Shown: in pieces, positions 24,641-58,165 of the stretch
Layout of the letters: each line of letters starts with the position of its first letter
Position numbering within the stretch: position 1 is the stretch's first letter
From: Neonectria sp. B-13
Taxonomy: Eukaryota; Ascomycota; Sordariomycetes; Hypocreales; Nectriaceae
Direction of reading: 5' to 3'
NCBI GenBank assembly: GCA_002682825.1
Contig: NOKP01000036.1
Coordinates: forward strand, 62,001-126,000
Length of the DNA stretch: 64,000 bases
The notes under the pieces: model-generated
The model's input: the letters and a program-made list of their open reading frames with translations, nothing else
Told to the model about the DNA's origin: nothing
Databases searched by the model: none
Position numbers and translations under genes: made by a program

Positions 24641-24644
24641 TTAG

Positions 24645-25579: not shown

Positions 25580-25702
25580 ATGAAACTTGATTTTGTACTC
25601 TTCTCCAACACTTTCATTTCCTTTCTCAGCGCCTTCACAGTGACAATTCCTCCTACACTAAACGCAGGATGTTATCGTATTGCCTCTAGTACCTCTGGTT
25701 AA
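25580..25702 (+). pseudogene. Possible 5' remnant of a small secreted protein gene
   Basis: Forty codons from an ATG in promoter-like unmutated sequence: a signal-peptide-like start (MKLDFVLFSNTFISFLSAF) then TVTIPPTLNAGCYRIAS and a stop where the sequence changes abruptly to the AT-rich tract. The charged N-terminus, hydrophobic core and small-residue end fit a secretion signal. The likely reading is that the 3' part was lost to the repeat that forms the neighbouring tract. Too short to assign to a family; it may be chance. Confidence 0.3.
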
Positions 25703-26663
25703 GTATATATTACATCTCTAAGGCGCTTAGCACGTATTATAGGTTAATCTCTATAGCTATTATTACCTTAAGTTTTTATATATACTTAGATAAACTTAGT
25801 AAGTATTAAGTAGTATATTTAGGATATATATTTGTATATATTACTTACTTACTTTTCTAATGTTTATACTTAAGATCTAATGTATTTATAATAGTAATTA
25901 GTAGTTAAAGTAGTAATTCATAGCTATTCTCTACTTTCTAGAGTTATTAGGTTAAGTTATACACTATAATAGGGGAAGGTTTAATCTAATATTATTAAGA
26001 TTTTACTAGGCTGTTAAGAAAGAGTAGAGAATTCAATTGTATATATCAATTCTACTGTGTAATAGCTGCCTATAGGGGAAAATAAGGTTGAAATGGTTAA
26101 ATTGCTCTCATTCAGACAATCTTGACTTAGGCCAAAAATCCATAACATGGCACTTAGGCCATTTGGTCGAGCACCCTACCGATTAGGTATAGTGCCGTGT
26201 GATGCCTTAGGCATGACGCAAATGGCTTGAGCTTGCTGAGGTAAGGTTGCTCGTTTGATGGGTCACGTGCCGATCCCTTTTGAGACAGTCTCCACGGAGG
26301 TCAAAGGAGGATCAAGACGGCAAAACAGGATCACAATCCCGGAACGCAGCTCTTCGCAACCCCAAACAGCAGAAAATATACAGCCTCACCTAGCCAGACC
26401 TTGGACGGATTTCCTAATAGTCTAGCCTTACGATGGTCTGGTAGTTGGAACGCCCCAAATGGTACGGGCGCCTAGTCAGCCTCGGTGCAGATGTCTCAAG
26501 ACTGCTAAGCTGAGACTAGGCATGTCGTCCACAAACGCAAGCAAGCCGTTGATCAGGTTTCGAACTTAGTAATACATCAAGAAACAAACAGAAGTTACTT
26601 CGCGTACTACTCGCCCCGCTTCTTCCTTCTGAGTTCCGTTGCCAGTTGGGCTTGCCCAGAATA
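25703..26663. other. AT-rich tract then unassigned unique sequence
   Basis: 25,703-26,090 is RIP-like. 26,090-26,663 has normal composition but no ORF with recognisable features; it precedes the CHAT-gene stub. Confidence 0.4.
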
Positions 26664-35910: not shown

Positions 35911-36080
35911 CCCAATATGAACATTACCCATATTGTATTGTATTGCTAAGAACTTAAGATATTTGCAGTATGGCAATATATCCTATATATTGTATGTTAT
36001 CTTTGTTATTAAACTGTGGTAGCTATAGTATTGTCTATTTGAAAGTCTTGTATTTTGAACCATGACTTTATGTACTCTAA

Positions 36081-38250
36081 TGCTTTAATTACATTACCCA
36101 AGTCGATTTTAACGGTCTATAATCATTATCTTTGCCCTAGAGAAGAGTTATTCAGGCTCTATAGACATTGTAGGAATTAATAGTATATCTATAGCTATCT
36201 TGCTTAGGCTTAGGTAGTTTTTCTACTGTATTTTCTCTAGCTACTATAAAAGAGTGCTTATAAAACTATAAACCTATTTAGACTTATAATAATGCTTATA
36301 TTTGTTTATAATGAGTAATAACTATAGGTACTTATTTTATTAATTTAAGAACTTATTTATAGTTACTAATGGGATCTTATAGGGAGGAAGAGGTAATTCT
36401 ATAGGTTTATATTCATTCTATAGTATCTTAATTAACTTCTTTAATAACTTAACCTACTTTTTTTTCTAGTTATCCTATATATAGTACTATTTATATAAAG
36501 GGTGGAGTATAATAGCTATAATGTAGGTAGATAATTCTTTAGTAAGCTAGTAGTACTTATCTAACTTTGCCCAGCTAGAGTTATATATTAGTACTATTAT
36601 TAGATTGCTAATATATGCCTCCTTCCCTACTTTAAATTGTACTAAAATGAAGTCTATAGCTAAGAGGATATTATTAAGTATTATAAATAATAACTTAAGA
36701 GCCTTAGTCATTATCTTTAGCTTCTCTAAGAAGGACTTAATCTTCTCTAAGATAGTCCAGTCCTCTGAAGAGAGCTTATCTTTAGTGCAATCTACTTCCA
36801 TCCATTTATTGAAATAGCTATCAATTGCATCTCTAAGGTTTAAGGCCACTTACAGCATGTTATACCACAAACTCCATCTTGTATCATTATCTCACACAAG
36901 CTTACAGTTATGGCTAATAGTGAGAAACTTTTGGCTGTACTGGATGCTTCGCTGGACGAAAACGACGAAGTTATAAAGCTTGCCAAGAGACCCCTTTTTC
37001 TGCTACGCTTCAATATGTTTTAAGGTCACATTATACAGACCAGGATCATCGAGTTCAAGTTTCTCATTAATGGTAACAAAGAGGAAGGCTTTGACAGCAA
37101 GGTTCATAATATGGCCTTAGCAGCAGAGTCAGTGCACTTTAGGATCATTTGAATGTTATATCAGCATAGGAGGCCTATAGGATATTAGGGCCGCCAGCTA
37201 GGAGAAACAGTGAGTTATACTAACCAAGCGAAAGGGATCTCATTATTGTATCAATATTGCCTACATTATCCATCATAAAATATCCAAGCTTTAAAGCAAA
37301 GCCCTAGTTATCAACTACTTCCAAAATGGCTATAGTAAGGTAAGAACCATTATACTTACTGTTAATGTCTTTCAATGCTAAAATATAGTATTCTAGCTGA
37401 CTGTCTTCTATGATATAGTGGCTAACTATGCCTAAGATAGCTAGAGAGTTAGGAGAAGTCTAAAGGTTATAGCTAATATAAATTCTTAACTTTACTAACT
37501 GTATATACTACTTAACCTTCTCCTTCTGGTCTTTATACTACTGTATGATCTATTTCTTAATAGTCTTATGCATATCTAGAAGCTATATATTGATATTGTT
37601 ATTAATATAGGCTAAGAGTGCTTAGAACTTTAGGCATTTTATAAGCTGAAATGGGAGAGAATAGGCTATAATAAACCTTATGTATAACACTTTGAGCTAG
37701 CTAGGGTTGATTGAATCTCTAGATTGATCGTTGAGCTGATAGTGTTTGTAGGGATTTTCTTCTGCTGTAGTATGAGCTTGTTCAAGAATTGTTTATATTG
37801 TTATTACTTTAGCTGTTTATAGGGCTCCTTTGGGCAGACTATGACTGTTAGGAGGAGGGTCCATAAGATGTTTTATAGGAGCCATAGTACCCCTAGAATA
37901 GGCATAGGTTTTGTCATAATGTTTATAGTACTACTCTTATTTTCCAATCTACTAATTATAGTATCTCATCTTAATCTCCTTGTCTAGCATATGATAGAAG
38001 ACCCATGAGGTTCTGGGCTTGGTGGAGGAGGTTGTGGAGGCTGTGCGAGGTCGAGATGACTGGCATTTGGACGTTCGGCTCACGTCTAGGTCATATAACT
38101 GCTGGCTGGAAAACTCCGAAAAGTCGTCTGAAATTGACAACTCTCTTCGTGGCGACCATTGTACAAAAGGGAGGCGTTGTTGAGGCATCGCGGTAAGTCT
38201 GTAGGCTTGACAGTGATAAAGAAAATGGGTTGAGGCGACAATGGTCAATG
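36081..38250 (-). pseudogene. RIP-mutated hAT transposase
   Basis: Minus-strand reading from about 38,250 down. The N-terminal part is unmutated (STTSSTKPRTSWVFYHML) and matches the BED-finger start of fungal hAT transposases, then RIP stops appear. Later segments follow family order: HYIIEDSQLEYYILALKDIN near 37,400; GYFMMDNVGNIDTIM near 37,250; GSLGKLYNFVVFVQRS near 36,950; DNDTRWSLWYNML near 36,880; and a 100-codon open stretch 36849-36547 with LRDAIDSYFNKW and LSSEDWTILEKIKSFLEKL. Hence a nearly full-length copy with stops. hAT enzymes move DNA by cut-and-paste with 8-bp target duplications; terminal repeats were not found. The lower boundary is approximate. Confidence 0.8.
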
Positions 38251-38551: not shown

Positions 38552-39646
38552 CTATTCCTGAGAGTGTACAGTGCTTGCTCGCTCACCAATATCGCGACCG
38601 CGCTTCTCCCAGGTCTGTTCAACCTTTGCAAACTGTTCCCAGAACACGTCCTCGGATTCGAAAGCGTCGCCCTGCCCGGAGGAGACCTCGTCTGTTAGGC
38701 AGAGCACAGCCATGTTGTCTGGCTCCTTTCTCTCGGTCTCGTCACCACGTGTCCCGCGGCTGTAAATCGCCTTGAGCCGAAGTGGCAATTGGAGAGGCGT
38801 CGCGGGCTTGTCCGTCTCGTTTGATCGAACGCGGCAGAACTTGGCATCCACGAGTTGGTATTCCGCTGCCCATACGCTCTTACCCGGGAAAGTCTCCCTC
38901 GTGTACCGGCCCCGGCTATTGGTGACAGAGGAGGCTGCGCCGAGGGGAATGTTGAGGAGCGCCATGATCTCTGCAGCGACGCTGGCTTCGACTGAGACGT
39001 CGTTCTTGCTCCAGGCGAAGCTCGTGCAATCCTCGAACTCGTATATGCCGGTGAGCATCCAGATCTTGGGCCACCAGCGCAGCGGCGTCAGCTTCAACCT
39101 GGCGTGTTCGTGGCTCGAGACAGACAGCCACTTCTGTACCGTTTCCCGCGTGGAATCGACTGCGAGAACTTTCTCTGAGAGGAACTGCTGAGAGCTTCCA
39201 CTTCATGAGCTACAAATTCCGCGTGGCAACGAAGAAGGGAGAGAAGAGAGGCCCGGAACTCACTTCTTCAGCGTAATACGCCTGCATCGTTCAGAGGCTA
39301 CCGCACGCTGGGTATCCTTGTTTACCGACAACCCGACAGTCACCATGTCGATAGCCGTCGCCGAGATCCCAAATCCTCGCAAAGAAGCGGACGAGTAGCA
39401 GATCTTCGACCTCGGTTGCACCTTTGCCCATGTATCGAGGTCAGTCTCGCTGCGGGAACGTCGTTAGAGGTCGGTTATGCAGCACAGGACGCGTTACTCA
39501 GACTCTCACCTTAATGGCTCCATGAAGCACTGGCGCCCTTTGGTGGGCCTGACGAAGGCGCCGAAGACCAGATGTCCAAGGGCCAGGTCCTGCGGCAAAT
39601 AGCCGTCGCTGTAGAAGTAGAAGGTTCGCTCTTCCGTTTCCGGCAT
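38552..39646 (-). CDS. Gasdermin-like pore-forming protein (fungal RCD-1/HET-Q1 type), probable
   Basis: Exons 39646-39510, 39449-39264 and 39200-38552 give 323 residues (the third exon may start 6 bp later; frame unchanged). The N-terminus FYFYSDGYLPQDLALGHLVF has the layout of fungal gasdermins (aromatic start, then D-x2-LG), followed by GFGISATAIDMVTVGLSV and KIWMLTGIYEFEDCTSFAW, the alternating hydrophobic strand pattern of the pore-forming domain. A charged C-terminal stretch of ~85 residues follows LPLRLKAIY and could be the inhibitory part removed by proteolysis. In other fungi most gasdermin genes sit beside a protease gene of subtilisin or CHAT type, and cleavage releases a membrane-permeabilising, cell-killing form. 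Here the divergent neighbour is a TPR-CHAT protease. Identity rests on remembered family patterns plus context. Confidence 0.6.
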
Positions 39647-40103
39647 GTTTTAGGACAGTAGCCCAATGTTGCTGCGACTTATTACGCTTTCTCAACTAGT
39701 ATTGACCAGGTAGCATGATGTGAACTTGGTGCTGTTAACGTTGACATTTGCATCACAGAGAGGAAGGTTGCCAACAGTGGTCCTTTATGTAGCGACCGCC
39801 ATCGGTTTCTTCCGCATTCTAGACCTTCCAAAACCCCCTCAGGATTTGCTGTTAGGTTGACGCCCAGGAGGATATTCCACAAACACTCCCAAGCGGACCA
39901 TGAGAAGACACGCTACAATCAGGCAACCACAATCACCAGTTTTTGCCTCATCCCTAGAACCACCCTTGCCGCGTGTTTGAGCTACGTACCACATATCCAT
40001 CAACTCCCGACGGGTGAGTTGAGCCAGTTCGCAATATGCCTTCCAGCTTTCTGCAATGCGAGGTCAAACTTTCGCCATGGAGCAGGGCTGACGAATCGAT
40101 GAG

Positions 40104-40283
40104 TCATGCTTCGTGATCCCGCGAGGCCTCCCCTTCACGATTTTGCCAAAGCGCATTGCGCCACTGTCCGAACTTCGAGTCCTCCACCAGGGCGTTGGCC
40201 CAGACCAGGCCGATAGGCTCTGCCACCGGCTGACTACTATGGTTGGGCGATCGTCGTGATGTGGCAGTCGACTGGTATTTCAT
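40104..40283 (-). CDS. 59-residue ORF in the gasdermin/CHAT intergenic region
   Basis: Complete ATG-to-stop frame. It begins MKYQSTATSRRSP, then has a compact hydrophobic/aromatic block, PIGLVWANALVEDSKFGQW and RNALW, and a charged end. The block looks more protein-like than the chance ORFs nearby. It could be a small gene, or the last exon of a gene cut by the MITE 68 bp upstream. No family recognised. Confidence 0.3.
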   Translation of the reverse strand: MKYQSTATSRRSPNHSSQPVAEPIGLVWANALVEDSKFGQWRNALWQNREGEASRDHEA

Positions 40284-40351
40284 GATTATGCTGAAAGTAC
40301 GTCAGAGATACGTAGTGAAGATGAGTTCCGAAAGTAGACGTCGCGCCCGTA

Positions 40352-40678
40352 CTTGGGGGGGGTCTCAAAATCGACCATCCCCTGACCTTCGTACCTCAGG
40401 TAGGGGGGGTCGTTGACTAGCAAAAGGAGGTTTGATTCGCAAAAATGCAGCTAAACCAGATCTATATGTACTTATATAGCAAAAGCTACCCCGCATGTCT
40501 ACATAGATGCAGATAGGCCCCCTAAATTCTAAAAATGAAGCTACAAACTGAGTCACTTAAAATTAGTGCTAACTAAGGTCACCTTTTTTTTGCGAACCAA
40601 ACCTCCTTTTGCTAGTCAACGACCCCCCCTACCTGAGGTACGAAGGTCAGGGGATGGTCGATTTTGAGACCCCCCAAG
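40352..40678. mobile_element. 327-bp Tc1/mariner-type MITE in the CHAT promoter
   Basis: Perfect or near-perfect inverted repeats of about 94 bp (40352-40445 and 40584-40678), ends CTTGGGGGG/CCCCCCAAG, flanked by TA on both sides (40350-40351 and 40679-40680), the Tc1/mariner target duplication. The ~140-bp middle has no ORF. The arms differ mainly in the length of the G run, so insertion looks recent; no RIP signature. Confidence 0.85.
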
Positions 40679-40800
40679 TAGCATGGTTATTACCTGCCTC
40701 TCGCCATCTGTCAGGGCTGCGGGAATTGAGCTATCCATCCTCGTTCTGTTGGTAGCGGTCCCCATCGACGACCTTCACAAACGTCCGAAAGACCGAAATC

Positions 40801-43800
40801 ATGGACTACGCAACCCTATGCCAACTCCTGGGCGGAACAATCTTCTCGGAAGAGTACCGCGGAAACCTGAGTGAAATCGAATCCCGGTGTGCTGAACCAG
40901 CCATTACCCCCCCTGGATCAGCTTCCGTCGAGGACAGACACTTCGCTACCCTACTCCGGGCAGTTCACCTCATCTTCACCGGAAACCTATCCGAGGCACA
41001 GAGCCGCCTCGAGAGCCTCTTAGAGGAAGATGGTACAGGCACACAATTTGCGGCCCGCTGCCGTGTCTACCTGTTCTACCTCGTCTGCGTCAAGCGGCTG
41101 CCTCCTGTACTCCGGTTCCACAGCACTCTTGACAATCCGGCAGGCGTCCTCGTGGAGGCTGAGCTCCAGCTGGGGGAGAAAATGAAAGAACTCAAACGCG
41201 CAAGGCAGTATCTCTCTGCAAAGGACTGCCTGGAGGGTGTACTCCTCGGGAACATGTTGACGTTCAACACCACGCTCCATGTATCCTTCCAGGCACACCC
41301 ACAGTACCCTCCCAATGTGGCGAAAGGCAGGCCGATTCACCTGAATCCCTTCCCAGACGGCCTCAGCGATATGTCGGCTCGTCTCGCCTTGCCGGCCACG
41401 AAGCTCTACCTCGACCGATTGGCCGTTGAGCTGCATTTGGCAAGGGGCTCGCCGGAGTCACAAAGCATGCTAGAGCAGCTCCGAGTCGCCTATGACGCTG
41501 CCGCAGACTTCAGCGGCATGGCGAATTGCCTCCTCATCAAGGCCGACGGTGTGGTGTCCCGTCCGTTCACTAGTCCCTTGGCCATGGGCCTGATAGTCTT
41601 GTTACGCGGTGAAGGCTGGTGTAATGATACCTGGGACGCAGCAGAGCCTGCGTTTCTTCTCCGCGATGACAGGCAAGCCCAGGATCTCTACGACCAAGCC
41701 ACTTTCCTCTTCGAGGCAGCCAATTGTCCTCGTGGCAAGGCCGCCACCCTTCTTCGTCGAGGATGCATCCAGCATGCAGTTGCCCTCTCGGCTTCAGGGA
41801 CTGATACAAAAGCTCTGAAGGCATTTGACGAGGCGGGCCGCTACTTTTCACAAGCAGGTGAGCTTTTCGAGGGCGATATAGTGAATAGCATGCTGGTTCG
41901 ATGCCACCAGCTGCTGTTGGCTATAAGTGCTCGAGAGGTCGTCGAGGTTGGCAGTATCGTGGGACTGGCGTTTGACCCATTCGATGCCGCCAAAGACCTG
42001 GGACTGTGTGCCCATGGCACGGGGAATGTCGGGGCAGCACAATTCATGGGAACCTTGATCTTGAGGTTCGGGCGGTGGAGGTTCGTCTGCGACAGGGACG
42101 TCAAGCTCGCCTTGGTCTGCTGCGCGTGTGCCCGGGCCTTCTTCGCTGCGGCAAAGGATTCGTACCTGGAGCTCCAAGCACTTCTCGCCCATGCCAGTCT
42201 CTTGCACCAATCTGGGGATCTCGCACGAGCCGAAATCAAAATCATCGAAGGCCGAGAACCCGGCGGGCTCTTGGCGAGGGCGCTAGAGCGCATAGCAATG
42301 GTATGCGACAAGTCAGAAAAGATCAGCGCGCTGCACGCCTTGAGGTTCAGTACGCTCAAGAGTTTCGACATCGTAGCCAGCCGAATCTACCAAGCGACAG
42401 GCAACTCTGCGATGTTCCTCGAATGGATCAGTGAAAGGGACCGGCTAGCCCCGTTGGGAACTGGGAACCATAAGCAGGAGATGGAACGCCTGTTCGATCG
42501 CCTTGCTTCCATAGCACTGGGCACCGATCCCAGCGAGATGCCGTCGAGAAGAGCTGACCTCGTCAGCAGAATCGTGTCGCCAATCATCTCACAAGAACAG
42601 CTGCTGGCTGACTATAACAACACCATGCGGCTAGTATACGCAGCTCTTGACAAGGCTGACGTCGAAGCCTGGCAAGACCTCCTCCGCGAGTTCGTGTGGC
42701 GATGCGACCACGCTACCCAGCCAAGCCTGCCGAGCGACCAGATTGCCATCTTCAAATTGATTGCTTTGTCTCAACTTGGTGATCTGGATGAAGCGAGGGC
42801 AATTCTGCCGGCTGCTCTGCCCAGGCAGTTCGCCGGCCCTATGGTCCGTACCGCGCAAGATGTTCTGGAGCAGTATATGGAGGCGCATGCGCCGCCAGAT
42901 GTGGCCGCGTGGCGGCGTAAGCAGAAGCTAGATGCAGCGGACCGAGCAATATCATACTGCATCCTTGCTCGAGACTGGGCTCGTGGAGCCGAGGTGATAT
43001 CCAGAGCCATCGCCGCTCTTCCCGAGTACAACAGTCCACAGTCATTGCCACGCACTTCCAACTCCTGGCAGACGCTGACCTTTGTTGCGATGATACAAGA
43101 GCACAACAGGCAGCCAGAGAAGGCACTTAAGTGGTATCTTTATGCCCTAAAGGAGTTAGATGCCCTCAGAAACTCCGTGGATGTCGAGGCTCGTCGCGGA
43201 TGTCACTCGTCAATCCATAGCGGAGAGCTATTCGCTGGACTGATAAGGGTATGCCTTGCCTTCGAACGGAGCCCGCCCTCGTCAAGTCGAGAGCGGCTGC
43301 CGCAACAGTGGGATCTGCCCGGTCTGTCCTGGGCGCAGCAGGCTCTGATCTTCATTGAACGTGGGCGATCTAGGGCACTGCTGGACCTTCTTGTGACAAA
43401 GGAGAACTTGGATCCTAAGAAGGTCACGGAATGGGCGGCATGGGCAAACAGGGCATACGAGGTCCATCTCCTCCTTCCCCTGGCAACTCGGCAGGGCAAT
43501 GACGGTCGTATCCTGTCATACGGCGAAGTAGCCGAGAGACTGGGCCAGCATGGACGTAGTTCTGCAATGCGGAACCTGGAGGACGTTCTTAGCGCACTTT
43601 CAAGACTTGAGGCAGAACAGCTGGCGGCGGGCTCCATGTTCAGCCTCGCTGATCCTGTGCTAACTGCCGAACCACTCTTTGAGTGTATCCCCCAGGATAC
43701 GGTTGTCTTTGAGATCAGTTCGAGCAGACAGGGCCTCATTGTGCTAGGCGTCACACACAAAGGAGTCGAGGCTTGGCACCAGAGCAGCCTGACCGACATC

Positions 43801-45018
43801 CAGCTTCGCACTCTAGTCCTCGCCTTTAGTAATATCGTGCGTAAGAGCAAGGGGACTGCAAAAGAGAAGGAAGAACTCGGCCAAATCGCTGCCGAGATAT
43901 CCAAGGAGATCGTGGCGCCGCTTAAGCGCACGATGGACGGCAAGGAGGTCGTCGTCGTCGCTCCTTCTCACGTCATGCAGCTCTTCCCTTGCTCTGCCTT
44001 GCTTCTCGACGGGAAACCACTATTCCTCCAGAAGATCGTGTATCACATCCCGAGCCTCTCAGTCCTCCAGCACCTCTCTAGACGGCGCGCTGCTGCCAAG
44101 ACCACCGGCGATGGGATAATCAGCGTCCTCGCTAGTTCTGCGGCGGCGGGCGCAAACATGGACCCTCTGGAGGCATTGGAATACCGGAAAGCAATCCCGA
44201 TGATCGGCCCCGAAGCGGTCATGGTTGCGGACGCCTTCAAAACAAACCCCATGGACCTAGCAGGCTGCGACGTGGACAAGCTACGGGCGATACTTGGGCA
44301 GTCAGATATCGTGCATCTCGCCACCCACGGGATCGCCCTCTTCGACTCCCCCTGGCAGTCGTACCTGGACACCAAACCACCATTCCGCGTGCTGGACTTG
44401 GCCGCGCTGACGGACTGTGCTCGGCTCGTGGTTTTCGGATGCTGCTGGAGCGGAGCAGGGAGCGCGAACCCCGGAAACGATATCATCGGCTTCACACACG
44501 CGACACTGGCATCAGGCGCCCAAGCGTATATCGGCGGCTTGTGGAAAACTGACGATATCGCCTCGATGCTCTTGATGGTGCTGTTCTACCGCGAGCTTGC
44601 GCGCTCGCTGCGAGGCCAGCGTGTGCGTCTCGCCGAGGCGTGGAGAAAAGCGCAGGTGGCGATGTATAACTTGGACGCGGCATCGGTGCGAGCGCTACTG
44701 GCCGATGCCCAGCGTCTCTGGAGCGATAAGGTGCAAAGTGAAGAGACGCCACACCTGCGGCTGTTCGAATACTCTGAGGATGCACTTAACGTCACCTTGG
44801 AAACGTATGATGAGGGTGATACTATCGTCGACTTGAAACACCCGGCAATATGGGCCCCCTACATCTTGGTAGGATGCGGAGATGTGATGTTTGGACAACT
44901 GCCCCTTGGGTCGACCGCGGCGGCGCAAGAGTCAGCGGAAAGTCGCGCGGATGCCTCCACTGGTAAGGACTCTAAATTATCAGTGGCGAGACTGCATGCA
45001 ACGGCTGACGACAATTAG
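40801..45018 (+). CDS. TPR-CHAT caspase-family protease
   Basis: A single exon of 1405 residues. Residues 1 to about 900 are alpha-helical with TPR-like helix pairs (for example LLHQSGDLARAEIKI, QEHNRQPEKALKWYLYALKE), a protein-interaction and sensing scaffold. The CHAT protease domain fills about residues 950-1370: VVVVAPSHVMQLFPCSALLL, then the catalytic His in VHLATHGIALF (His1176) and the catalytic Cys in VVFGCCWSGAG (Cys1215, aligned with the family's C-E-S-G), then GFTHATLASGAQAYIGGLW. Both active-site residues are present, so activity is expected. CHAT enzymes are caspase-like cysteine proteases; in fungi and bacteria some cleave gasdermins to start cell death. The divergent gasdermin-like gene is the obvious candidate substrate. 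The last codons and 3' UTR recur at 26,680. Confidence 0.9.
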   Translation: MDYATLCQLLGGTIFSEEYRGNLSEIESRCAEPAITPPGSASVEDRHFATLLRAVHLIFTGNLSEAQSRLESLLEEDGTGTQFAARCRVYLFYLVCVKRLPPVLRFHSTLDNPAGVLVEAELQLGEKMKELKRARQYLSAKDCLEGVLLGNMLTFNTTLHVSFQAHPQYPPNVAKGRPIHLNPFPDGLSDMSARLALPATKLYLDRLAVELHLARGSPESQSMLEQLRVAYDAAADFSGMANCLLIKADGVVSRPFTSPLAMGLIVLLRGEGWCNDTWDAAEPAFLLRDDRQAQDLYDQATFLFEAANCPRGKAATLLRRGCIQHAVALSASGTDTKALKAFDEAGRYFSQAGELFEGDIVNSMLVRCHQLLLAISAREVVEVGSIVGLAFDPFDAAKDLGLCAHGTGNVGAAQFMGTLILRFGRWRFVCDRDVKLALVCCACARAFFAAAKDSYLELQALLAHASLLHQSGDLARAEIKIIEGREPGGLLARALERIAMVCDKSEKISALHALRFSTLKSFDIVASRIYQATGNSAMFLEWISERDRLAPLGTGNHKQEMERLFDRLASIALGTDPSEMPSRRADLVSRIVSPIISQEQLLADYNNTMRLVYAALDKADVEAWQDLLREFVWRCDHATQPSLPSDQIAIFKLIALSQLGDLDEARAILPAALPRQFAGPMVRTAQDVLEQYMEAHAPPDVAAWRRKQKLDAADRAISYCILARDWARGAEVISRAIAALPEYNSPQSLPRTSNSWQTLTFVAMIQEHNRQPEKALKWYLYALKELDALRNSVDVEARRGCHSSIHSGELFAGLIRVCLAFERSPPSSSRERLPQQWDLPGLSWAQQALIFIERGRSRALLDLLVTKENLDPKKVTEWAAWANRAYEVHLLLPLATRQGNDGRILSYGEVAERLGQHGRSSAMRNLEDVLSALSRLEAEQLAAGSMFSLADPVLTAEPLFECIPQDTVVFEISSSRQGLIVLGVTHKGVEAWHQSSLTDIQLRTLVLAFSNIVRKSKGTAKEKEELGQIAAEISKEIVAPLKRTMDGKEVVVVAPSHVMQLFPCSALLLDGKPLFLQKIVYHIPSLSVLQHLSRRRAAAKTTGDGIISVLASSAAAGANMDPLEALEYRKAIPMIGPEAVMVADAFKTNPMDLAGCDVDKLRAILGQSDIVHLATHGIALFDSPWQSYLDTKPPFRVLDLAALTDCARLVVFGCCWSGAGSANPGNDIIGFTHATLASGAQAYIGGLWKTDDIASMLLMVLFYRELARSLRGQRVRLAEAWRKAQVAMYNLDAASVRALLADAQRLWSDKVQSEETPHLRLFEYSEDALNVTLETYDEGDTIVDLKHPAIWAPYILVGCGDVMFGQLPLGSTAAAQESAESRADASTGKDSKLSVARLHATADDN

Positions 45019-45251: not shown

Positions 45252-45610
45252 TTAAATATGGCTCCTCTTTGGCAGCTCGGCGCAATGAAGGTAGACGGAG
45301 AGTTCTGAGCTTGTATTCTGCGTATCTCTAATTATGGTGATAGCGCCAACATCGGTCAGCAGACGTGAATTACCAGGTTCAAATAATAGGCGAGAGGAAA
45401 CAACCCCAATGTCAATATCCTGGATACACTCGCCCGTATCGGCGCGCCAGATCCGTACCGTCTCGTCGCGAGAGGCTGAGGCCACGAGCGCTGAGTCGTG
45501 CGAGAAGGCGACCGACATAACCCCGTCGCTATGGCCCTCGAGGGTCTGCATACACTCGCCCTTGAAGGGTGGGGCGGGTGAGCCAGCTCCGGCAAAGCTC
45601 ACCCGGCTCC
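45252..45610 (-). pseudogene. Last WD40 repeat and tail of a truncated NLR-type gene
   Basis: Minus-strand frame with one complete WD40 unit, [20 protein letters not shown] through [18 protein letters not shown], then the closing segment [17 protein letters not shown] and a 3' tail ending PKRSHI. This is how fungal HET-E/NACHT-WD40 proteins end: the last repeat followed by a half repeat. The frame loses similarity before residue 12, where the AT-rich tract begins (about 45,650), so the other repeats and the NACHT core are missing. It is a 3' fragment rather than a working gene. The remaining part is not mutated by RIP. Confidence 0.75.
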
Positions 45611-46708
45611 GCTGAGTCGCGCGATTGGCTCGACCACAGGAGCAAACTATACATTTTTATCCTAATCCCGTACAAACGGCAACTCTACATTCAGCTCATG
45701 GCCTTTGCTAACTATAATACTAGAAGCAGCCTGAGTTAAGACCTTAAGATTGCCTTAGTTTATAATATAATAATCTATAATACAATAGACATATAACTAT
45801 TATAGATAATACTACCTTCTACTACCTTACTAAGCCTTCCTTTTGAGCTTTACCCTAAAATAGTTAAGAATTTGTCATTTCTAGACAATATTAATCTAAA
45901 GAGGACTTATAAATACTTTTAGGGCCTTATTAAGTTCAGTCATATTAAGCAAATCAAAGCTAAAACCTCCCCTTATGCAATAGCTAAAGATATTTATGCC
46001 TATATTAGCTGTTAATGCCTATAGCCTATTTATAGGTTTATAGATAAAATGCTAAAGGCAAAGAAATAGAAAAGTAGAGTAGAAGCTTTAAAGTACTTCT
46101 ATATTAAATATAGTATAATACTATAAGGGAAAGAATGCATTTAAGGGTATACTATGAGTACCTATATATTAATATAAGGGATATATTATATAATCTGCTT
46201 TAGCTACTAACATTTTAATAGAAAGGTATAAGATAATTAAGATAGAAATACATTATATTATTTACTTTATATAATAGTAAAGGAGAGCTTTTAGATAGCT
46301 TTCTAATAATACTAAGAGAAGTATAGAATAGTAAAAGAGTAGAGAAGGTTAAGGTAGGAATAAGAACAGAGGTAAGCAGCTAGATATGCTTTTTAGGGCT
46401 TAGACTATAATAAAGACTCAGATGGATTAGAACCTAGCCCAACCTAGAGTAAGTTATAGATGGATATAATTCAAGCTAAGGCAGATATGTATATGAATAG
46501 CCCAAAGGCCAGGTCAGAATAGCTCTCTTATGTCACTTCTTAAGATATCAACTTGATCAGTAATCAAAGCCGAAATTCTTAGTTACTTTAATAGTCTTAA
46601 TGCAATATAAATGAGCAACTAGAACTGCCTTATGCAAAGACGCAGGACTAGGCAAAGAAAGTAACCTGCTAAGGTTAGTACTACTAGTATGGAGCTAAGC
46701 TCTAAGGC
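45611..46708. other. RIP-degraded tract, unassigned
   Basis: AT-rich with dense TA words. A plus-strand reading starting near 45,700 (MAFANYNTRSSLS) keeps a frame with RIP-like stops for about 300 bp but I could not name the family. Probably a transposon body. Confidence 0.4.
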
Positions 46709-46712
46709 ATAG

Positions 46713-47259
46713 TTTGGCGGTGGAAAGGGACAAGAAACAATACCCCAAATGGATGACAGTCCTTTAGTGAGGTACACAGAAATGCATCGCATAGGCGTCT
46801 CAGTCGGTCAGCCCTAAGCTGAACTAGACAGTGCGTATATGGTCAGGCAGTCTAGAGTCTAGTACCTCCTAATAGGGAAGCATCTCATGAGGTTGATTGT
46901 TAAGTTGAAAATAGGAAAGAATGTTAGTAAGGCATTGAAAAGGCCTGCAGTTGGCTTAGCAATCGGCATTATAGAAGACAGAGGTTTGACCTAGAATTAA
47001 GTGAAGATTTGAATGTAATTATAGAATTCTTTCTCAGTAAACAAAGGCAAAGGCTTGAGCTTTGAGCTCAATGAGCTCATTTCTCTCGTCTCTCTGCAGT
47101 AAGAAGCTCTCTAGTCCTTATCTCTTAAGGTGATGATGAAAAGAAAAAGACCCTCTCCCTCCTTCCCTACTTAACCTTCCTTGCGGCAGCCCCCTTCTAT
47201 ACCCAATTACACCCCTGCTAGCAACCAGCTAGCCCACTTGGCCTTTAGCCCCTGCTACA
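46713..47259. repeat. 550-bp interspersed repeat, copy 2 (RIP-mutated)
   Basis: 547 bp matching 24091-24640 over its whole length, from TTTGGCGGTGGAAAGGG to GCCCCTGCTACA, flanked by ATAG on both sides (46709-46712 and 47260-47263). Differences from copy 1 are mostly C-to-T and G-to-A (GCGTCGCACAGG against GCATCGCATAGG), as RIP would cause. It sits inside an even more degraded tract. Confidence 0.8.
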
Positions 47260-47263
47260 ATAG

Positions 47264-48844
47264 GCAGTACTATATTACCTTGTTTAAAGAGCCTCTAGTA
47301 TTATCCATTAACCCAAAACTCCTTATTAGCATAGGAGCCTAGGCTCTTAACTGCCCAGTCCTACTTAAAGTTATCCTCTTCTATCTCTATTAAATATCCT
47401 TTCTCTTCTTTTTAAACTTTATTCTCATAAGTAATAGCTTTTGCATTTGTCTTTCTCCTCTTTTAATAGGTCTTAGTCAATAAGCCTATACTCTCCTCCT
47501 TATGCATTTTACACTTAAGTAAGTTCTCTTTTGTCCTATGAATAAATTTCATATGTTCTATCTATCTATTAAGGCTAATAATTATTATCTTATTACTATC
47601 CTTATAGTATATAGAGTAAGAAAATAGGTTTTTAAATTTGCCTATTTAGATATACTTTATAGTAATATATACATTAAAGCTATTAATAGTAAATAATCCC
47701 TTATATAAGTAATAATAAGATATTCTATTATTTATATTTAGTATATTAATCTTATTATAGTATTATATAGTATAATTGCTTTAGGCCTATATATTAGCCT
47801 TAACCTTACTATTCTCCTTCCTAAGCTTTTTATACTTTAAACAGAAGAATAGCTTTTCTACTTTCTCTTTATAGAAATACTAGAAATGTTTTATAAGGTA
47901 TAAACAACTTTAAAAGAAACTATATAGCCCTAGGAGATACTAAGGCTATTTAGTTATATATCTAGCTAGATTGATAGTAGTATTATCTATCTTTAATAGA
48001 ACTATAGCCTTATAATCCTTTTGAATATAGTTCTTTATTATTTCTAGGACCTTCTAGTAAGGTTTTTAACCTATTAATAAGCCTTTAATATATAAGGCAG
48101 TTAGGTTACTCTTTATATATAGATACTAATAATAATCTTTAAGAATAGTATTCTATAAATAAACTATCAGTTTACCTCTTATATACAATCAATTTACCTT
48201 ATTAAAATAAATATCCTAGTTCTTTAATAACTAAAGGTACTTAAGGTAATCTTTTATTAATCTTATCTTTATTATAATCTTCTTTTTTACTTCTTAGCTT
48301 TAAGGTAGAAAGGCACTATACTCTGTCTAAAGACAGTAGATATTATCCCTCTTCTTAAAGCTATTAAAATCTTCCTTAGAGATATAGATTAAAGCTAGAT
48401 TATCTTATTTTAGAAAGGCATAATAAGTCTTTTTAAGAAGAATATCTATATTGCCTATATAATCTTTAAAAGAGATCCTTATAAGGTTCAATTTAATATT
48501 AAATAGTTAATAACTCTTCTTAAATACTTTAGAAGAGTTAAATAGAATAAAATTATATAAAGGTACTTTTAAATATCCTAAAATATTATAAGCTTAAATA
48601 TAACCTTTAAAAATCTTAACTTACTAATGAATTAACTAATAGAATCTACCCTTAAAGAGTATAGTCTTATTCTATTCTTATTACTAAGATTTATAATAAG
48701 GATAGTACAATCCTAAATAGCCTAAAACTAATTATATAAAATAGAAAGAATTTCCTAGTCTAATATTTTAGGTTTTCAGTCAACTATTATATAGTTAGCT
48801 TTAATACCTAATAGTATCTTATATGATAATATATTATTCACTAT
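47264..48844. other. RIP-degraded tract, unassigned transposon-like
   Basis: Very AT-rich, without ORFs. It probably continues the element interrupted by copy 2 of the 550-bp repeat. I could not recognise protein domains on either strand. Confidence 0.4.
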
Positions 48845-50209
48845 ATAGCTAATATACTTAATAAGCAAGTACAATAAACAAGCAAGTGTAACAAAAATCC
48901 CTCAATCTCTCTTTCTTCCATTTAATCAATTGATTCTTAACTACTAAACATATCTCAATTTAATAATAAGGCTTCTATACTCCTTGCTCTTTAAGCCCTT
49001 TAAAATAACCTAAAATTAAGTCTCTAATGTACTATAAGCATCTACTAGGTCCATTTTTAGACCTTATATTACTAATAGAAGGGTATTCTTTCTTAATATA
49101 ATACTATCCTTAAATCATATAGACTATTTGATCTAGAGGAAAAGATTATTATTTAGTTTATTCTTAATCTAAATTCATAAGAATTTCCCTTATAACTATA
49201 TAATATTAAAGAAATAGTTTACTAACTGCTTACTAACTATAATATATTACCTATTAGTAAGTATTAAGCTTCTAACTTTATTAGGTAATAACTAAAGCTT
49301 AAAATATTTTTCTTTTATAAATATAACTATTAGAGGGCTAAATATAAAGATCTAACTATTATTTATAATTGGTTCTAGCTTATAAAGAATATAATCATAA
49401 AATATAGTATTAATTTAGCTAATATCTATAACTTTAATAAGACTAGCTTTATAATAAGTATAATTATAAGTAGAATAATTATTATAAGTATAAATAGATA
49501 TAAAAACCTAAAATCAGTCTAGCCTAAAAACTAGGAATAGGTTATAATCATTTAGGCAATTAATATAGAAGGCTAAGTAATCTAGCTATTTATTATAGTT
49601 ATAGGCTAATATTACCTTACTAACTAGTACTAAGAAAGTAACCTTTTAAGCAATTAAGCTATTATAATAACTTAAAATAACTAGACTAATAATAAGATAG
49701 GTCTTAAGTAGCTTAAGTACTTTAGCTAGTATATAAAGAATTAATTAACTAATTATTATTATCTTCTAATCCTTAATAAGTATAAAAGTTATTACTCTAT
49801 TAACTTTAAGAAATATTATAAAGAGAATAATATTATTATACTTTATATACTGCCTTATTTATCTTATCTACTCTAGCCTTTTAATGTTAGGTACTTTAGG
49901 CTATTTAAAATAGCCTATAGTTAACAAATTGAATAATTAATCAAATGTTTTATAATCTATATTATAAAGACTAAGTTCTTCCTAGCCTTCTATGCTATCT
50001 ATATAGCTACTATAATAAGGAGTAATATTAAAGGAGGTTTTTAAAGGGCTAGACTTATTCCTTTAAACCTAGAAAATGTTATATTAAAGCTTAATATATA
50101 GCTATAGACTTTAATATTAACTATAGAGAAGGTTAGCCTTTCTAACCCTTAAGTCTTAAAGACCCTAAAGATAATACTTAAGGCTAGTTTATAGTCTAAA
50201 TACCTTAAA
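48845..50209 (+). pseudogene. RIP-mutated pogo/Fot1-like (DDE) transposase, 5' part
   Basis: One reading frame runs from an ATA at 48950 (mutated ATG) to 50209 with stops that fit RIP (TAA/TAG) but no frameshift. Readable pieces follow the pogo family order: SQFNNKASILLAL; DLEEKIII near 49,133; RAKYKDLTIIYNWF near 49,340; IYNFNKTSF near 49,425 and LLILNKYKSYYS near 49,763, where the first two catalytic Asp residues now read Asn; then ILYILPYLSYLL. Upstream, 48,845-48,890 resembles the arm of the palindromic MITE at 35480, probably the terminal repeat. The enzyme's 3' part continues at 58534, after the gypsy insertion. Confidence 0.8.
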
Positions 50210-50577
50210 TGTAATAGTCAGGTCTAGCCTAAGGGTATAGAGTAGGTCTAAGGTATATAGTTTAATGATTGAGTAGATTAGGATATTATAGTAAGTAATA
50301 TAGGTTATAATAGTAATATATAAAGGTAAGTTATTGTATAACTAAGTAGAAGTATTAATAGCTAAGAAGCTTAAGGCTCTTATCTAATGTACTAAATGAA
50401 TATATATATATATAACATAGAATAATAAGGTCTAGGAGCATATTAGTCCTAGAGTACTATTGCTCTTAGAGTAATATTATTCCTATAAGTTATAGTCCTT
50501 CTATAGTTAGAGAGAAAAAGTAGGTATATTATAGTTCTACTGATTGTAACTATCTAGTCTTAACCTAGGCTATAATA
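50210..50577 (-). repeat. LTR (3' LTR in element sense)
   Basis: Begins TGTAATAGTCAGG and ends CTAGGCTATAATA on the plus strand; matches 58166-58533 closely, with differences mainly transitions (GGCTATAATA against GGCTGTAATA). TG...CA ends are inferred, the final CA having become TA. Confidence 0.88.
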
Positions 50578-53500
50578 TAATGTCTCCCTTCTAGTAGTCT
50601 TATCCTTAAGGCTATATTAGTAGGCCTATTTGGATTTCTTATTGATTTATAGTTTCTTCTTCTATAAATATTCTATGTAATATTATACTAATGAAATATC
50701 CAGCTATATTATAAAGACTTCTATACAAAAACAAACTAAGTGTTTAGCTTTATCCTATACTATTGCTATTTTAGGGTAATCTATTGATATATTATATACT
50801 TACTGCTTTTATAGTAGTAAGTATTATATTATATCTAGGGATTCTATATAATATAGTGAGTATATTGATATAAGAAAAACTTATGATAGTATATATATTG
50901 TATTATCCTATGAGTATTCTTTAGGGTATTGTTTTTCTTTTGCTAATTCCTTTTAGTTATTAAATTAATAAACTAAGAGAAGAAGCTAAAGGTAGATAAG
51001 AAAGAGGTAGATAAAGATTTATTAAAACTTTATAATGAACTAATAGCCTTTTAATTGTATATAGTAATTGCTATAGGTTGCTTATTGTATCTTTGAAAAA
51101 TGTAGAATAAGGTAAAGGAGAAGTGTTCTAAGATAGTTCATTAGGGTCTATAGGGTCTAGAGGAGGAGGATAGTCTATTGGATGCACTAAATGCATAGGA
51201 ATATAAGATGATTTAAAATCTCCTAGGGTTTACTATTCTAAGTAATATTGACTAATCCTCCTTTAGTCTTAGTTTCCTTAATAGTACTAATACTTTAGTT
51301 TTAGATCCTTTTTTGTCTTTTAGTATAATTAGTAAAAGTTCTTTAAGAGGTATTAAATATAAGTAAGATTTTTTACTAGTTCTTATTAATTATTACTCTT
51401 AGGATAGTCTTTCTATTTAATAAGATACTTAGTTTGATTATTTACTTTATATATATTTAAGATTACTTTTACTATATATTCTTTTAGTCCTTTAACCTTA
51501 GTTTTATATTTATTATTAAACTTAGTATAAATTGTATCTTTTATAGTCTTAAGGAATAAGATATAGAAAACTAAGTAAAGTCTAACTTTTAGTAGTAAGT
51601 CTAACTAATAGTTATTTTCTAAGATTTTCTTAATAATTTTGTAAGATCTAATGAATTTATAGTTCAATTTTTTATTTTATTATTTTATTTTAATGTTTTT
51701 TATTATAAGATAAACCATATCTCTTTCCTAGAAAGATAGTCTCTTTATTCTTTTTGAATTATAGTATTTTTTTATCTAGTTTCTAATGAATTTAAGCTTA
51801 GTCTTAAGTTCTTTATATAGATTCTTTAATTTTTCTATTGTAAGAATGGCTTTAGGGATAATTAATCTATCTTAGCTTATTCTATAAGCATTAGGATTGA
51901 ATCTAAAGTTAGTATATACTAGGGTAAGCTTTATGCTTTTATTTATAGCTATATTATAGCTCAATTATATAGTTAGTAGCTTCTAAACCTAGTTATTCTA
52001 TTTATAATTAATATAGTATTAAAAGTACTATTCTAGTATTTAGTTTATTCATTCTATTTGATTGTTAATCTAAGGTTAGAAAGCTATAGTAAGTTAATAG
52101 TTTAATCCTAAATAGTTTATTAATGATTATTAAAACTTTAAAGTAAATAAAGGTCCTTAATTAGAGAGAATCTTTATAGGAAGTCTATAAATACTAATAA
52201 TGTTTTATAAGAAGATATAAATAAACTGCTTTATATCTATTGATTCCTAGTAAGATATAAAATAGGAAAATTTTATAAGTCTATCTATAATAATAAGAAT
52301 ACTATTATAGAAGGTTCTAATTATAGGGTCTTCTAATAGAGGTAGTTTTATAATAAAATCTATAGTAATAAAGTCCTAAGGTTATTTAGTAACTAATAAG
52401 GGCTATAGTTCTCTATATGGTTTATAGTATTAAGCCTTAGTTTTATAATATTTATTGTATTAGTTAATAATCTCTTTAATTACTATCTTTATTTTAGGAA
52501 ATTAGTATATTAATTTAACTCTATTAAGGGTTTTATTAACTCCTTAATGTTTATAAAGCAAATACTTATATATTTCTTATATAAATTAGTATTAAAGTTC
52601 TATAGGAACTTATTACTTATTAGTTTTTTTATCTTAAGGTAGCTTATTATTATAACATTAGATCTAAGTATAAAGGTCATTATAATTTATAATAATATAA
52701 GTACTTCCTAATGTTTTTCCTTTATTATTTATTACCTATTGTATAGCCTTATAACTTAGGTATTTTATACTAAAGTCCTATTAGTAGTAGGTATTATATT
52801 AGTAGTAGTTATTAGGTCCTTCTATATTCTATATAAAATAGTTATTAAAGTAGCCTTAAAACTATTTATCTAACTATTTATATTAATATTTAATAATTTA
52901 ATAATAGTATTTAATAAAGTCTTTATAATGCTTTAGTAGTATATAAAGGCTTCCTTTAATTTAAACTATACCTTAGTCTATTATAACCTAGTTTAGTTTA
53001 TTAAACATTATTTATTATAATTCTAGGTTATATAATTATATCTAAAACTTCTTTTTCTATTTAGAGGTAATACTTTCTTAGATAGATTATATCTTATAGT
53101 ATATTCTATCTTTATTAATAAATAATTATCTAATGATAGTAATGTACTTCTATTTAAGATATCCTTTAGGCATAAAGTATAAAAGTTATTTATTAATCTC
53201 TTATTTTCTATTATTAAAGTTATATTAGTAGCTTATAGTATTAGCTTATCTATTTTCTAATTCTTTTCTATAGATAATAGTATAATTAAATTCTAAAAGA
53301 TATTTAATATAATAGAGTTATTATTTAGTAAGTTATTATATAATTGCAAAGTAAGTAATATTCTTATAGTCTATATAGACCTTAACTTAGTATTTACTTC
53401 CTAGGAGATATTATTAAAATTCTTTGAATGAGTTAATAATTATAAGGAATTCTTTATTATAGATAGGATAATTAAGTTTAGCTTTATACATTTTATAAGA

Positions 53501-53749
53501 GAAGAAGGCAATAGGGTAAAGTATATTATTATTATCTTATTGTCTAATCTAAGAGTCTTATATATAGTCTAATAAGTCTATCTTAAGTTTAATTTCTTAT
53601 TTAGAGTTAAAGGTTATTAGTACTAGTTTACTTAGGATAATATTCTTAATATTATTGAATGCTTTCTTAGTAGTTATATCCTATTGAAAGTTTTCTTCTT
53701 TTTTTATAAATCTAGTAAAAGGTATAATAAGTCTACTAAAGTTTTAAAT

Positions 53750-54560
53750 AAATCTTTAATAGTAATTTGTAAACTTAAGGAATAATTATACTTTCTTAAT
53801 GTTCTTTAGTCTAGGCTATTTACTAATTATAGCAATTTTCTTTAGGTTTATTCTAATCTAGTTATATAAGATTATATATTTAAGAAATTCTATTTCCTTA
53901 ATATAGAAATAACTTTTCTCTAGTTTAACTAACAATTTATTATCTTATAATACTTATAGTATCTTATGGATATATTCTATATATTCTTCTTTAGTTTTTA
54001 AGAAGATTAGGATATTATCTAAATAGTATACTATAAATATATTTAGATATTCTTAAAGTATATAGTTAATTATTTACTAGAATAATACTAAGGTATTTAT
54101 AAGTCCAAAGGGTATAATAAGGTATTTAAAGAGTTTATACTTTATTCTAAAGATAGTTTTCTATTTATATCCTAACTAGATATAGATAAGGTTATATACT
54201 CCTTTGAGATTTAGTACTATAAAGATCTTTATCCTATAGAGCCTATCTTTAAGCTTAGTAATAAGAGGTAATAGAGTTTAATCTTTAAGAATAATTATAT
54301 TTAACTATTTATAATCTATAATAAGTTAGAGCTTTCTATTTTTCTTAGGAATAAATATAATTAGATAATCTATAAAGGACTTAGATTTCTTAATATATCC
54401 TTTCTTTAATATTTTATTAAGGTATTCCTTAAGTATATATAGTTATGTTTTATTAAGATTAAAGATTTTATAGAATATAGGTAATATTCTATCTTTTAAT
54501 ACAATTTTATAACTCCACTTATTGAATTCTAATAGGCCTATCTTAAGTTCTTCCTTAAAG
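53750..54560 (-). pseudogene. Gypsy reverse transcriptase remnant
   Basis: On the minus strand: PFGLINTLVLF near 54,110, then FIVYYLDNILIF at about 54,005-54,040, where the polymerase's second catalytic Asp is read as Asn, then KTKEEYIEYIHKIL and EIEFLKYIIL. Order and spacing are those of Ty3/gypsy reverse transcriptase. Stops fit RIP. Confidence 0.82.
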
Positions 54561-56934
54561 AGTTTCTTATAGATCTAATACTCTAATAGTATATTCTTAA
54601 GTTATTCTTCTTTAGGGAGTTTCTTCTATTCCTTAAGGTCTTTATTTAACTATATAAACTATTATCTAATGTATTTAATTATTCTTTAAAGCTATTATTA
54701 TTTAATATTCTTTTATTTATATTATATTCCTTTTAAAAGTATTAAAGTATTTATTGTATTCTTATACTTATTCTTACTTTTTATTTCTTTAAGAGTTAAG
54801 ATTTAAGATTTTTCTTCTTCTATTAAGTTATTTTTATTATTACTAGAGAGAATATTATTAGGATTAATGTATACTTAGTTAATTCTTTAATTAATATAAA
54901 GGTTGAATTTCTTTAGCTATAAGTACCTTAAAATAATATTATAATATATTATAGGTATAATATTAAGAGTAATATCTTAATTTTATCTATTAATAAGAAT
55001 CTTTAAGTAATTAATCTATTAGGTTATTTATTCTTTATTATATAAAAATAGGTTATCTTTAAGATTCTATACTATATATAGATCCTTTTTGTTTTTCTAT
55101 AGTAGCTTTAGCTTATTGATTATACTAGGGTTAATATATAATACTTAAGCTCTACTATCTATTAATATAGTAAGCTATTTATCCCTAACTTATACTTATA
55201 GCTTAAGTATTATTTATTTCTTTACTAATTCTATTGTTATATATAAAGCCTTTATTAAAGGTAGTTTGTTCTCCTTTTGATTACTTACCTATTGCTCTTC
55301 TATAGATAGTATTTATTGTTTTTTATATATTTATAGAGTTCTTTATACTATATATAGTTTATTAGTATTCTATTAGTTTGTATAGTAAAGTTAAATCTAT
55401 CTTTATGCATTATAAGGATCTATTTATAGATTCTTTATGCTTCTTCTATGTATTCCTTATAGTTATAGTTCTTATAGTTTATTATATACTTCTTAGTATA
55501 TTAAGGGTAATTATTTTCTTATGTATTATATTATTCTTAAATCTTAGTGTATATATAGACCTTGCATTCTAGGTATAGTTAGTCCTTTAGGTCTAATAGT
55601 CCTTTTATATATTATTTAGTAAAGTATTAATCTTATAGCTAGATAACTATAATATGTCTAGATTGTAACTATTGCATTCTAATATAGCCTTATATTTCCT
55701 ATTTAAGGTATAGGTTTATAATAGGGTAGTTAGTAACCTTAGTTAGATAATAATCATTCTTTACTTTATCTACTAGGTATACTAAGTATATATTATAGAA
55801 ATAAGATATTTATGAAAGTTCCTTATATTCTATAGTATCTTTAGGCAGTTAAGGATTATCTTCTTTGTCTGGGTTTAGTATATATAGTAGTATATATTAT
55901 TGTATATAAGTAACTTATTAATATTAGGCCTAAATATAGATATTATCCCCTTCTTTAGTATTTAGCCTTTCTTGGATAAGTTATATATATATTTACTTTA
56001 ATGTTTTCTATCTTTGTTCTATTATCCTATTATAGATAACTATTATCTATTATAGCTTTAGGATTAGAGCTTTTAATAGTATACTAATGATTGCTTACTC
56101 TAGGGGTTTAGTTGAAGGTATAATAACTTTAGACTACTATCCCTTTTTATTTGATTCTTCTAATAAGGTATTATTAATGCTAAAGGCTGTTTTATAGCTA
56201 GTATAATTATCACTTAGATATTCCTTAGTAAAGGCTTAAATGTTATTATCTTAGATAGATAGACTAAGCTATTATGCACAGTTTGCTTTATATCTAGCAT
56301 TAATACATAGGTTTCTATCCTTTCTAGTATAGAACTATTAGTAAATACAATTATTATCTTTCTATATTAGAGACAAGTTAGTACTAAGTTCTTTAATGTT
56401 TATAGATATAAATAGTTTAGTTAATATACTATTATATTATATTTAAGATATTAGGAAGGTTTATATTTTTCTACTTTCTAGATAGCTATAGTCTATAATG
56501 ATTTGCTTAACCTCTAGCTATCTATTAGGAATATTAATCTTAATAGTTAGTTATTAGTAGGACTCTATATCTTCTAGGATAGGTTCAAAAGGGATTTATA
56601 TCTTTCCTTTTTGAACTATAGTAATAGTTTTACCTTTGGTTATTATTCTTAGTTTTCCTTTAGGGATAGAAGTCTAAAGGTTATATATTCCTTTCTTAAA
56701 TCCCTTATTATTCCTAGTAGGTTCTAGAACTCTATATTATGTTTTTTTAGTATACTTACTATTATCTTTAGTTTTATATTATTTAATATTAGGCAGAGGT
56801 AGTATTATATTAAAGCAGTTAGTATTTACTATATTATATAACCCTTTAATTATACTAATAGTTTTATTATAGTTAGTAAATTGAATATATTTACCTTTAA
56901 GTATAGGTTTATACTTTTATCCTAACTTAGGCTT

Positions 56935-56990
56935 TTAATACTTACTTTCAAAATGTCCTATTCCTCTATAGTTTTAATATTTAACTTAAG
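56935..56990 (-). pseudogene. Gag CCHC zinc-knuckle remnant
   Basis: Minus-strand reading Y-x2-Y-RGIG-H-FESK-Y keeps the exact C-x2-C-x4-H-x4-C spacing, with each Cys codon (TGT) now TAT. This places gag upstream of pol in the minus-strand sense. Confidence 0.7.
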
Positions 56991-58165
56991 AGTAGTCTTA
57001 TTGTATAGCTCCTAGTTCTATAGGGCTAGACTGAATTCCCTAAGAGGTATTTCTATTCTTCTTTTTACTAGTATTAGAGTAGTTTTTCTTATTCTTCTAA
57101 ACATTAAAGGAATCCTTCTTTTTCTTAATGTATCTTTTGAATAGTTAGTTATTAATGAGTATATAGGTCTTTGTATAAGAGTTAAAGTTAATTAATAGGT
57201 CTAAGATTTTATAGATCTTATTCTTAACTTTATCCTTAAGTCCTTAGTAGAACTTATTAATTTGGTTTTTATTAGTCTAGTTAAGTTTAGTAGTAAGGTA
57301 TCTAAATTCAGAAAGGTACTCTAAAGTAGCCTTAATCTACTTTAGCTTTTAGATTATAAGGAGGGCATTATGTTTTTTGTCCTATTCTCTATAAGTATTA
57401 ATAAGTTATTCTTTGTATAGTATAAAGCTACTAAAAAGTTCCTTTATCTTAATCTTTTAGTTCTTAAGGGAGTTTATATTTTTAATAAAGTTCCTTAGGT
57501 ATAATTCTATTCTATATAGGGCCTTATCTTTAAAGAGGCTTATTCTATATTATACCTTAAGTTATTTGTTCCTAAATGCACTAGGGTAGTATATATAGAA
57601 TAACTTGATTTAGGTTAAGTGTTTATAGAAGTCTTTTAGGGTACTATTGAACTTTAGTGACTATATTAGCTTGATTATTTTACTAATATCCCTAGGTTAT
57701 AGGATATTAAGGGTAACTAAAAAGCTACTAAATTGTTCAATTTATTAGAGTTATTCCTAATGTATAGCTATTTACTCTATCTTAAGGTATTAAATAATCC
57801 CTTAAAGAGTAGTAATCATTAGGTCTAGAGTAGCTTAGGTAGTGGTAAGTCTCTATATTTCTGTATACAGATAGTTAAAACATTCCTAGTTTTCTTTATT
57901 TTCCTTTTTAGAGGCTTTTAGAATAATAGCCATTTGTGCATTAAGTTGGTTGTTTTATTCCTAAAGACATTGGATTTTCTCTTCCTTGTCTTTATCTTTA
58001 GAGTCTACTAGGTCTATATTATTATCTTTATTATTATCTTTTACAATCTGCTTTCCTTAGGGGGCAGTAGATAATAAGCTTATTATAAAGGTCATAGGAG
58101 CTATAATAACTATTTAGGTATTACTTAGGTTAATATAGTAATACACTAAATAAGAGCTATTAATA

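Follow-up and report, generated by a model that had tools for sequence, protein, structure and literature searches.

We analysed a window of 64,000 nucleotides from Neonectria sp. B-13, located at positions 62001-126000 of contig C57 (C57:62001-126000) in a genome of 60.9 Mb and 123 contigs. Two genes lie head to head in this window: a small candidate gasdermin-like gene at 38552-39646 on the minus strand, and a gene for a large protein with a CHAT protease domain at 40801-45018 on the plus strand. They are transcribed divergently and their start codons are 1154 bp apart, as had been described in a first, sequence-only reading of the locus. With a probability of roughly 0.7, we interpret the pair as a two-gene module for regulated cell death, in which a TPR-like CHAT sensor-protease would act on a gasdermin-like executioner.

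The CHAT protease gene encodes 1405 residues in a single uninterrupted open reading frame (ORF). Residues 1030-1358 (43888-44874, plus strand) match Pfam model PF12770 with an E-value of 7.5e-35, which bears out the claim that the protease is intact. At least 51 relatives were listed when the 7995 best candidates were scored, 14 of them with E < 1e-100 (P0009-P0022), and the nearest named one among the matches listed is from Fusarium falciforme (92% identity over 97%). In an alignment of the window protein with 14 of the relatives listed, PF12770 is matched in all 15 proteins. His1176 (codon at 44326-44328, plus strand) and Cys1215 (44443-44445, plus strand) are in place as stated before and invariant in 15/15; we take them to be the catalytic pair, following the sequence-only reading and what is known of CHAT proteases. 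The predicted lack of a NACHT core also holds, as no NACHT or NB-ARC model of Pfam matches the protein at E <= 1. No PDB chain is similar to it at E <= 10. Whereas the CHAT half of the earlier label TPR-CHAT is clear, the TPR repeats are weak: in the window protein TPR_4 stays below the cut-off (E 0.009), at E <= 0.1 six of the 15 aligned proteins match TPR_12, the best at 2.2e-4, and a loose TPR pattern of our own making finds one window in the first 1000 residues, a number equalled in 84 of 500 shuffles. A TPR sensor in the 1405-residue protein is plausible.

For the small gene, the reading frames and an alignment with eight homologues yield a model of three exons and 321 residues. Exon 1 (39510-39646, minus strand), which begins MPETEERTFYFYSDGYLPQDLALGHLVFG, aligns to P0001, P0003, P0004 and P0007, and exon 2 (39264-39449, minus strand) to P0001, P0003 and P0004. 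Exon 3 with the stop codon (38552-39194, minus strand) is one stop-free open frame supported by the family alignment. Intron 1 (39450-39509, minus strand; 60 nucleotides, GTGAGA...CCCGCAG) is followed by an intron 2 of 69 nucleotides (39195-39263, minus strand; GTGAGT...GAAG), which ends in an unusual AAG acceptor and has a branch-like CTCAT 11 nucleotides before it. The acceptor at 39195 shows the best agreement with the family among the eight that were compared. Both AAG acceptors give the full conserved reading; the five closest CAG/TAG sites truncate the protein to 109-193 residues, and a CAG acceptor at 39099 yields 289 residues, with 32 lost. Since only the AAG sites give the full reading, the in vivo intactness of the small gene hangs on a non-canonical acceptor. 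The pair had been called a complete executioner plus activator, and both genes are indeed present, but completeness is uncertain owing to this splice site.

The AAG acceptor six bases upstream gives a protein of 323 residues, presumably the form reported earlier. We prefer 321 residues because the junction of exons 2 and 3 has LK-x-P in the relatives (LKRPQQ, LKSPKS, LKDPQK, LKNPQK) and they are two residues shorter there than the 323 form; the gene is found where it had been placed, with a slightly different product length. In the database, the models of two named Fusarium relatives, P0002 and P0005, begin or shift frame at the same junction, which suggests that gene finders trip over it there too. 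P0001 and P0003 cross the junction in one frame and lie on contigs of 1231 and 981 bases; given these small contigs and the single frame, they may be derived from transcripts.

Ten homologues of the small protein were found (P0001-P0008, P0060 and P0061), several of them partial, and the nearest named relative is again from Fusarium falciforme (93% identity over 63%). All ten share a layout of three parts, with boundaries set by motifs that we chose from the family alignment: a core, then 12-34 residues of linker, and finally a conserved tail 43-55 residues long. Net charge ranges from -1 to +6 in the core and from -6 to -16 in the tail. In the window protein the core comprises residues 1-253 (charge +5), the variable linker residues 254-266 (38720-38758, minus strand) and the conserved acidic C-terminal segment, a candidate inhibitory tail, residues 267-321 (38555-38719, minus strand; net charge -8). 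The sequence-only reading had suggested cleavage within the last ~85 residues; a tail after a linker is indeed seen, but a length of 55 to 68 residues fits better. A search for related loci in genome contigs and viral contigs gave none, as expected for a fungal gene.

The pairing is kept in relatives. Linkage can be judged in five species, those of the five homologues out of ten on contigs above 100 kb (contigs of the remainder measure 981 to 6744 bases). In three of these species the two genes are neighbours or share a contig, the CHAT gene being among the matches listed. In F. falciforme the locus tags are adjacent (FALCPG4_010076 for the small protein and FALCPG4_010077 for the CHAT protein, contig of 4,096,864 bases). 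In L. hispida and P. plurivora both homologues lie on contigs of 1,365,264 and 2,563,405 bases, respectively, where equal base counts were taken to indicate the same contig. Moreover, the Neonectria genome contains a second CHAT gene, on contig C63, whose divergent partner is homologous to the small protein. The link between the two small proteins was drawn from shuffled global alignments and position, with nine control ORFs that all come from the flanks of other CHAT genes. A BLASTP comparison of the two CHAT proteins is uninformative (E 0.67), so the two genes are distant. A lack of conservation in relatives, which the sequence-only reading had named as grounds for giving it up, is answered by the three of five testable species together with the homologous divergent pair on C63.

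Genes with a C14 caspase domain adjoin CHAT loci on C63 and C94 (L037:741-3077, plus strand, E 1.6e-12; L038:2719-4764, minus strand, E 4.9e-11), and on C63 the gene order is C14, gasdermin-like, TPR-CHAT. A speculative extension, which we consider possible but on balance unlikely, is that the small protein defines a family of executioners coupled to large CHAT proteases, either separate from the recognised gasdermins or a very deep branch of them; the C63 relative, whose cluster of three genes includes a C14 caspase-domain gene, would then place two caspase-type proteases around one executioner.

Several results weigh against a gasdermin-based module, most of them from searches with the small protein. 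Pfam gives no match at E <= 1 for the protein searched as three exon pieces, nor at E <= 10 for four relatives, none of the ten homologues carries a Pfam domain in the homologue tables, and the gasdermin model PF04598 finds nothing at E <= 10 across the whole genome. The PDB yields no chain at E <= 10 for the spliced protein or for two family profiles, and no gasdermin chain at that threshold for the C63 protein (two ZCCHC8 rows for the latter, E 0.36 and 0.44, were judged to be chance). For the same four relatives, no PADLOC model matches and NCBIfam returns a single chance-level row far below the cut-off (TrbD, E 0.092). Motif patterns for a gasdermin-like start, which served as look-out patterns and are not counted as evidence, have no match in the flanks read around other CHAT genes. 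AlphaFold runs on the homologue family, with P0001 and P0004 as queries, give a mean predicted local distance difference test (pLDDT) of 31 for both and a predicted template modelling score (pTM) of 0.26 and 0.21. To the same side belong the sub-threshold TPR_4 match, the need for an AAG acceptor, the broken database models of P0002 and P0005, and the hhalign comparison of the candidate with the C63 protein (P 0.034 and 0.063, probabilities 1.5% and 0.9%), which is not significant alone. V. albo-atrum and C. notabilis, finally, show no CHAT partner among the matches listed, which is not proof of absence. The gasdermin resemblance claimed earlier is not confirmed, with neither a Pfam or PDB match nor a confident fold; profile searches, as then proposed, place the CHAT protein in PF12770 and give no credible match for the exon pieces or the relatives of the small protein.

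How much these negatives count depends on the comparison. Fungal and animal gasdermins are reported to share little or no relevant sequence identity (PMC8742441, PMC12547243), so the absent match to animal gasdermins counts little; the absent match to RCD-1, for which PDB entries exist, counts somewhat more. The small protein could be a CHAT substrate or effector of another, undescribed fold, activated by the protease without being a gasdermin. We regard this as unlikely, even though no library tried gives sequence or structure evidence of gasdermin identity, the models are of low confidence, and the CHAT pairing, variable linker and acidic tail would suit any protease-activated effector. In its size, in the shortness of its C-terminal tail and in having a TPR-CHAT gene as divergent neighbour, it matches what is reported on fungal gasdermins (PMC12881547, PMC10197012, PMC10989679). 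The low-confidence P0001 model, moreover, has strands flanking a helix (153-161, 175-187, 214-222) that resemble the beta-alpha-beta arrangement described for bacterial gasdermins (PMC12547243), a weak likeness; the P0004 model is without the first strand. Overall, gasdermin membership of the small protein is likely; sequence and fold give no proof of it.

Another explanation is a locus in decay or without function, with a compromised acceptor, AT-rich and probably repeat-induced point mutation (RIP)-affected surroundings and a transposon-like insert in the shared promoter. The intron 2 acceptor and the truncation that follows from the closest CAG/TAG sites are in line with this, as are the flanks of 19-33% GC. 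The insert resembles a miniature inverted-repeat transposable element (MITE); it lies at 40357-40675 (no strand assigned) in the upstream region common to both genes, has 89-nucleotide terminal inverted repeats (99%) and ends 125 bp before the CHAT start codon. Against decay, neither the coding exons nor the 1405-codon ORF contains a stop, identity to F. falciforme amounts to 93% for the small protein (over 63% of its length) and 92% for the CHAT protein, and the junction in relatives fits the same exon boundary. We therefore consider a decayed locus rather improbable, while noting that it would be compatible with gasdermin by descent and that its odds overlap with those of the other readings. 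That the two genes are chance neighbours without a functional link is very improbable: some species with the small gene show no CHAT gene among the matches listed, but the adjacent tags in F. falciforme, the shared contigs in two more genera and the independent homologous divergent pair on C63 all speak for a link.

If the pair is indeed a cell-death module, it might work as follows. A region of ~1000 residues, probably made of helical, TPR-like repeats, would sense a cue and thereby license the C-terminal caspase-like CHAT domain as a Cys/His protease. The protease would cut the linker of its 321-residue partner and remove the acidic tail of ~55 residues, after which the freed core of ~253 residues could assemble pores in the plasma membrane and kill the hyphal compartment. 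This may serve allorecognition, or protect against mycoviruses or other intruders; a role in allorecognition is suggested by analogy with fungal precedent (as reported in PMC12881547, PMC10197012, PMC11138114).

The surroundings of the pair show further features. Outside C57, at least 18 places match the repeat ends of the MITE-like insert at 83-89%; five of these matches are among the first 400 bases of their contig. AT-rich blocks at 20001-26000, 36001-38000 and 46001-64000 have 19-38% GC against 43-57% elsewhere (in 2-kb steps) and look RIP-affected. Between the pair, a small open frame at 40104-40283 (minus strand) begins MKYQSTATSRRSPNH and may be one exon of a third, small gene. Shortly after the CHAT gene, and close to AT-rich DNA, comes a WD40 fragment (45252-45602, minus strand, E 5.7e-13), perhaps the remnant of a repeat-protein gene. 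A gene with a HET domain, another gene of the incompatibility type, is present ~34 kb away (2577-4316, plus strand, Pfam HET E 4.3e-30).

Contig C57 is palindromic in the parts tested: the 64-kb window differs from its mirrored stretch at 0 of 64000 positions, and the two 3-kb ends are reverse complements. At the centre 279 of 9963 positions differ, all within 201333-201631 (299 bases), the site of a run of 100 N. Most simply, the second 'copy' of the gene on C57 is an assembly duplicate, and two genomic copies were rejected because of the mismatch-free mirroring, the reverse-complementary ends and the confinement of mismatches to the stretch around the N run; alternatively, it may represent a real inverted duplication. 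CHAT matches on C63 and C36 likewise occur in opposite-strand pairs of equal score.

A two-gene cell-death module is a type already known in fungi, and this branch escapes the standard family libraries tried. Diversity is high among fungal gasdermins, and the candidate branch, missed by Pfam, NCBIfam, PADLOC and PDB sequence searches, was revealed through its CHAT partner. Should it be a gasdermin, the questions of what a CHAT sensor without NACHT detects and how a CHAT protease picks a gasdermin tail could be put to a ready two-gene system. The pair also directs attention to the genome's second cluster, the one that contains C14. A literature search on gasdermin, CHAT and Fusarium found nothing, and one on gasdermin, Fusarium and heterokaryon incompatibility gave papers, PMC13304501 among them, of which none is about the pair by its title.

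Comparison with known systems shows both likenesses and differences. As in the TPR-CHAT/gasdermin cluster of Podospora anserina, of which Clave et al. 2022 is reportedly the source according to reviews, a small executioner adjoins a large repeat-CHAT protease; unlike there, no similarity to solved gasdermins is detected and the pair is known from its sequence alone. In P. anserina the TPR-CHAT protease is reported to have been shown to activate its gasdermin. According to the same reviews, ~80% of the gasdermin genes of fungi have a protease gene in their cluster, CHAT accounts for ~17% of those proteases or is found with 19% of the gasdermins, and repeats of kinds such as TPR, ANK and WD40 are usual (PMC12881547, PMC10197012, PMC10989679). 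The short C-terminal tail also agrees with reports on microbial gasdermins. HET-Q1, described as a protein of 278 residues that loses 40 on activation (PMC10989679), is of a similar size class (278 against 321 residues) with a similarly short tail (40 against ~55). However, its counterpart HET-Q2 is given as an S8 subtilisin-like serine protease, and het-Q1 and het-Q2 as idiomorphs (PMC12881547), whereas the two genes of the present pair co-occur. RCD-1 of Neurospora crassa, to which a relation as fungal gasdermin is proposed, differs in its reported length of 244-257 residues and its activation on meeting the other allele, without cleavage (PMC12881547). hetB of Aspergillus fumigatus resembles the large gene in coding for a 1327-residue CHAT protein that controls heterokaryon incompatibility; its partner allele, however, is an idiomorph coding for 149 residues, and a gasdermin role is not shown for it (PMC11138114). 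Bacterial gasdermin operons with caspase-like proteases are prokaryotic, and four relatives of the small protein are without a PADLOC match; nonetheless, they are reported to follow the same logic of a protease gene beside a pore-former with a short inhibitory tail (PMC12881547, PMC12547243).
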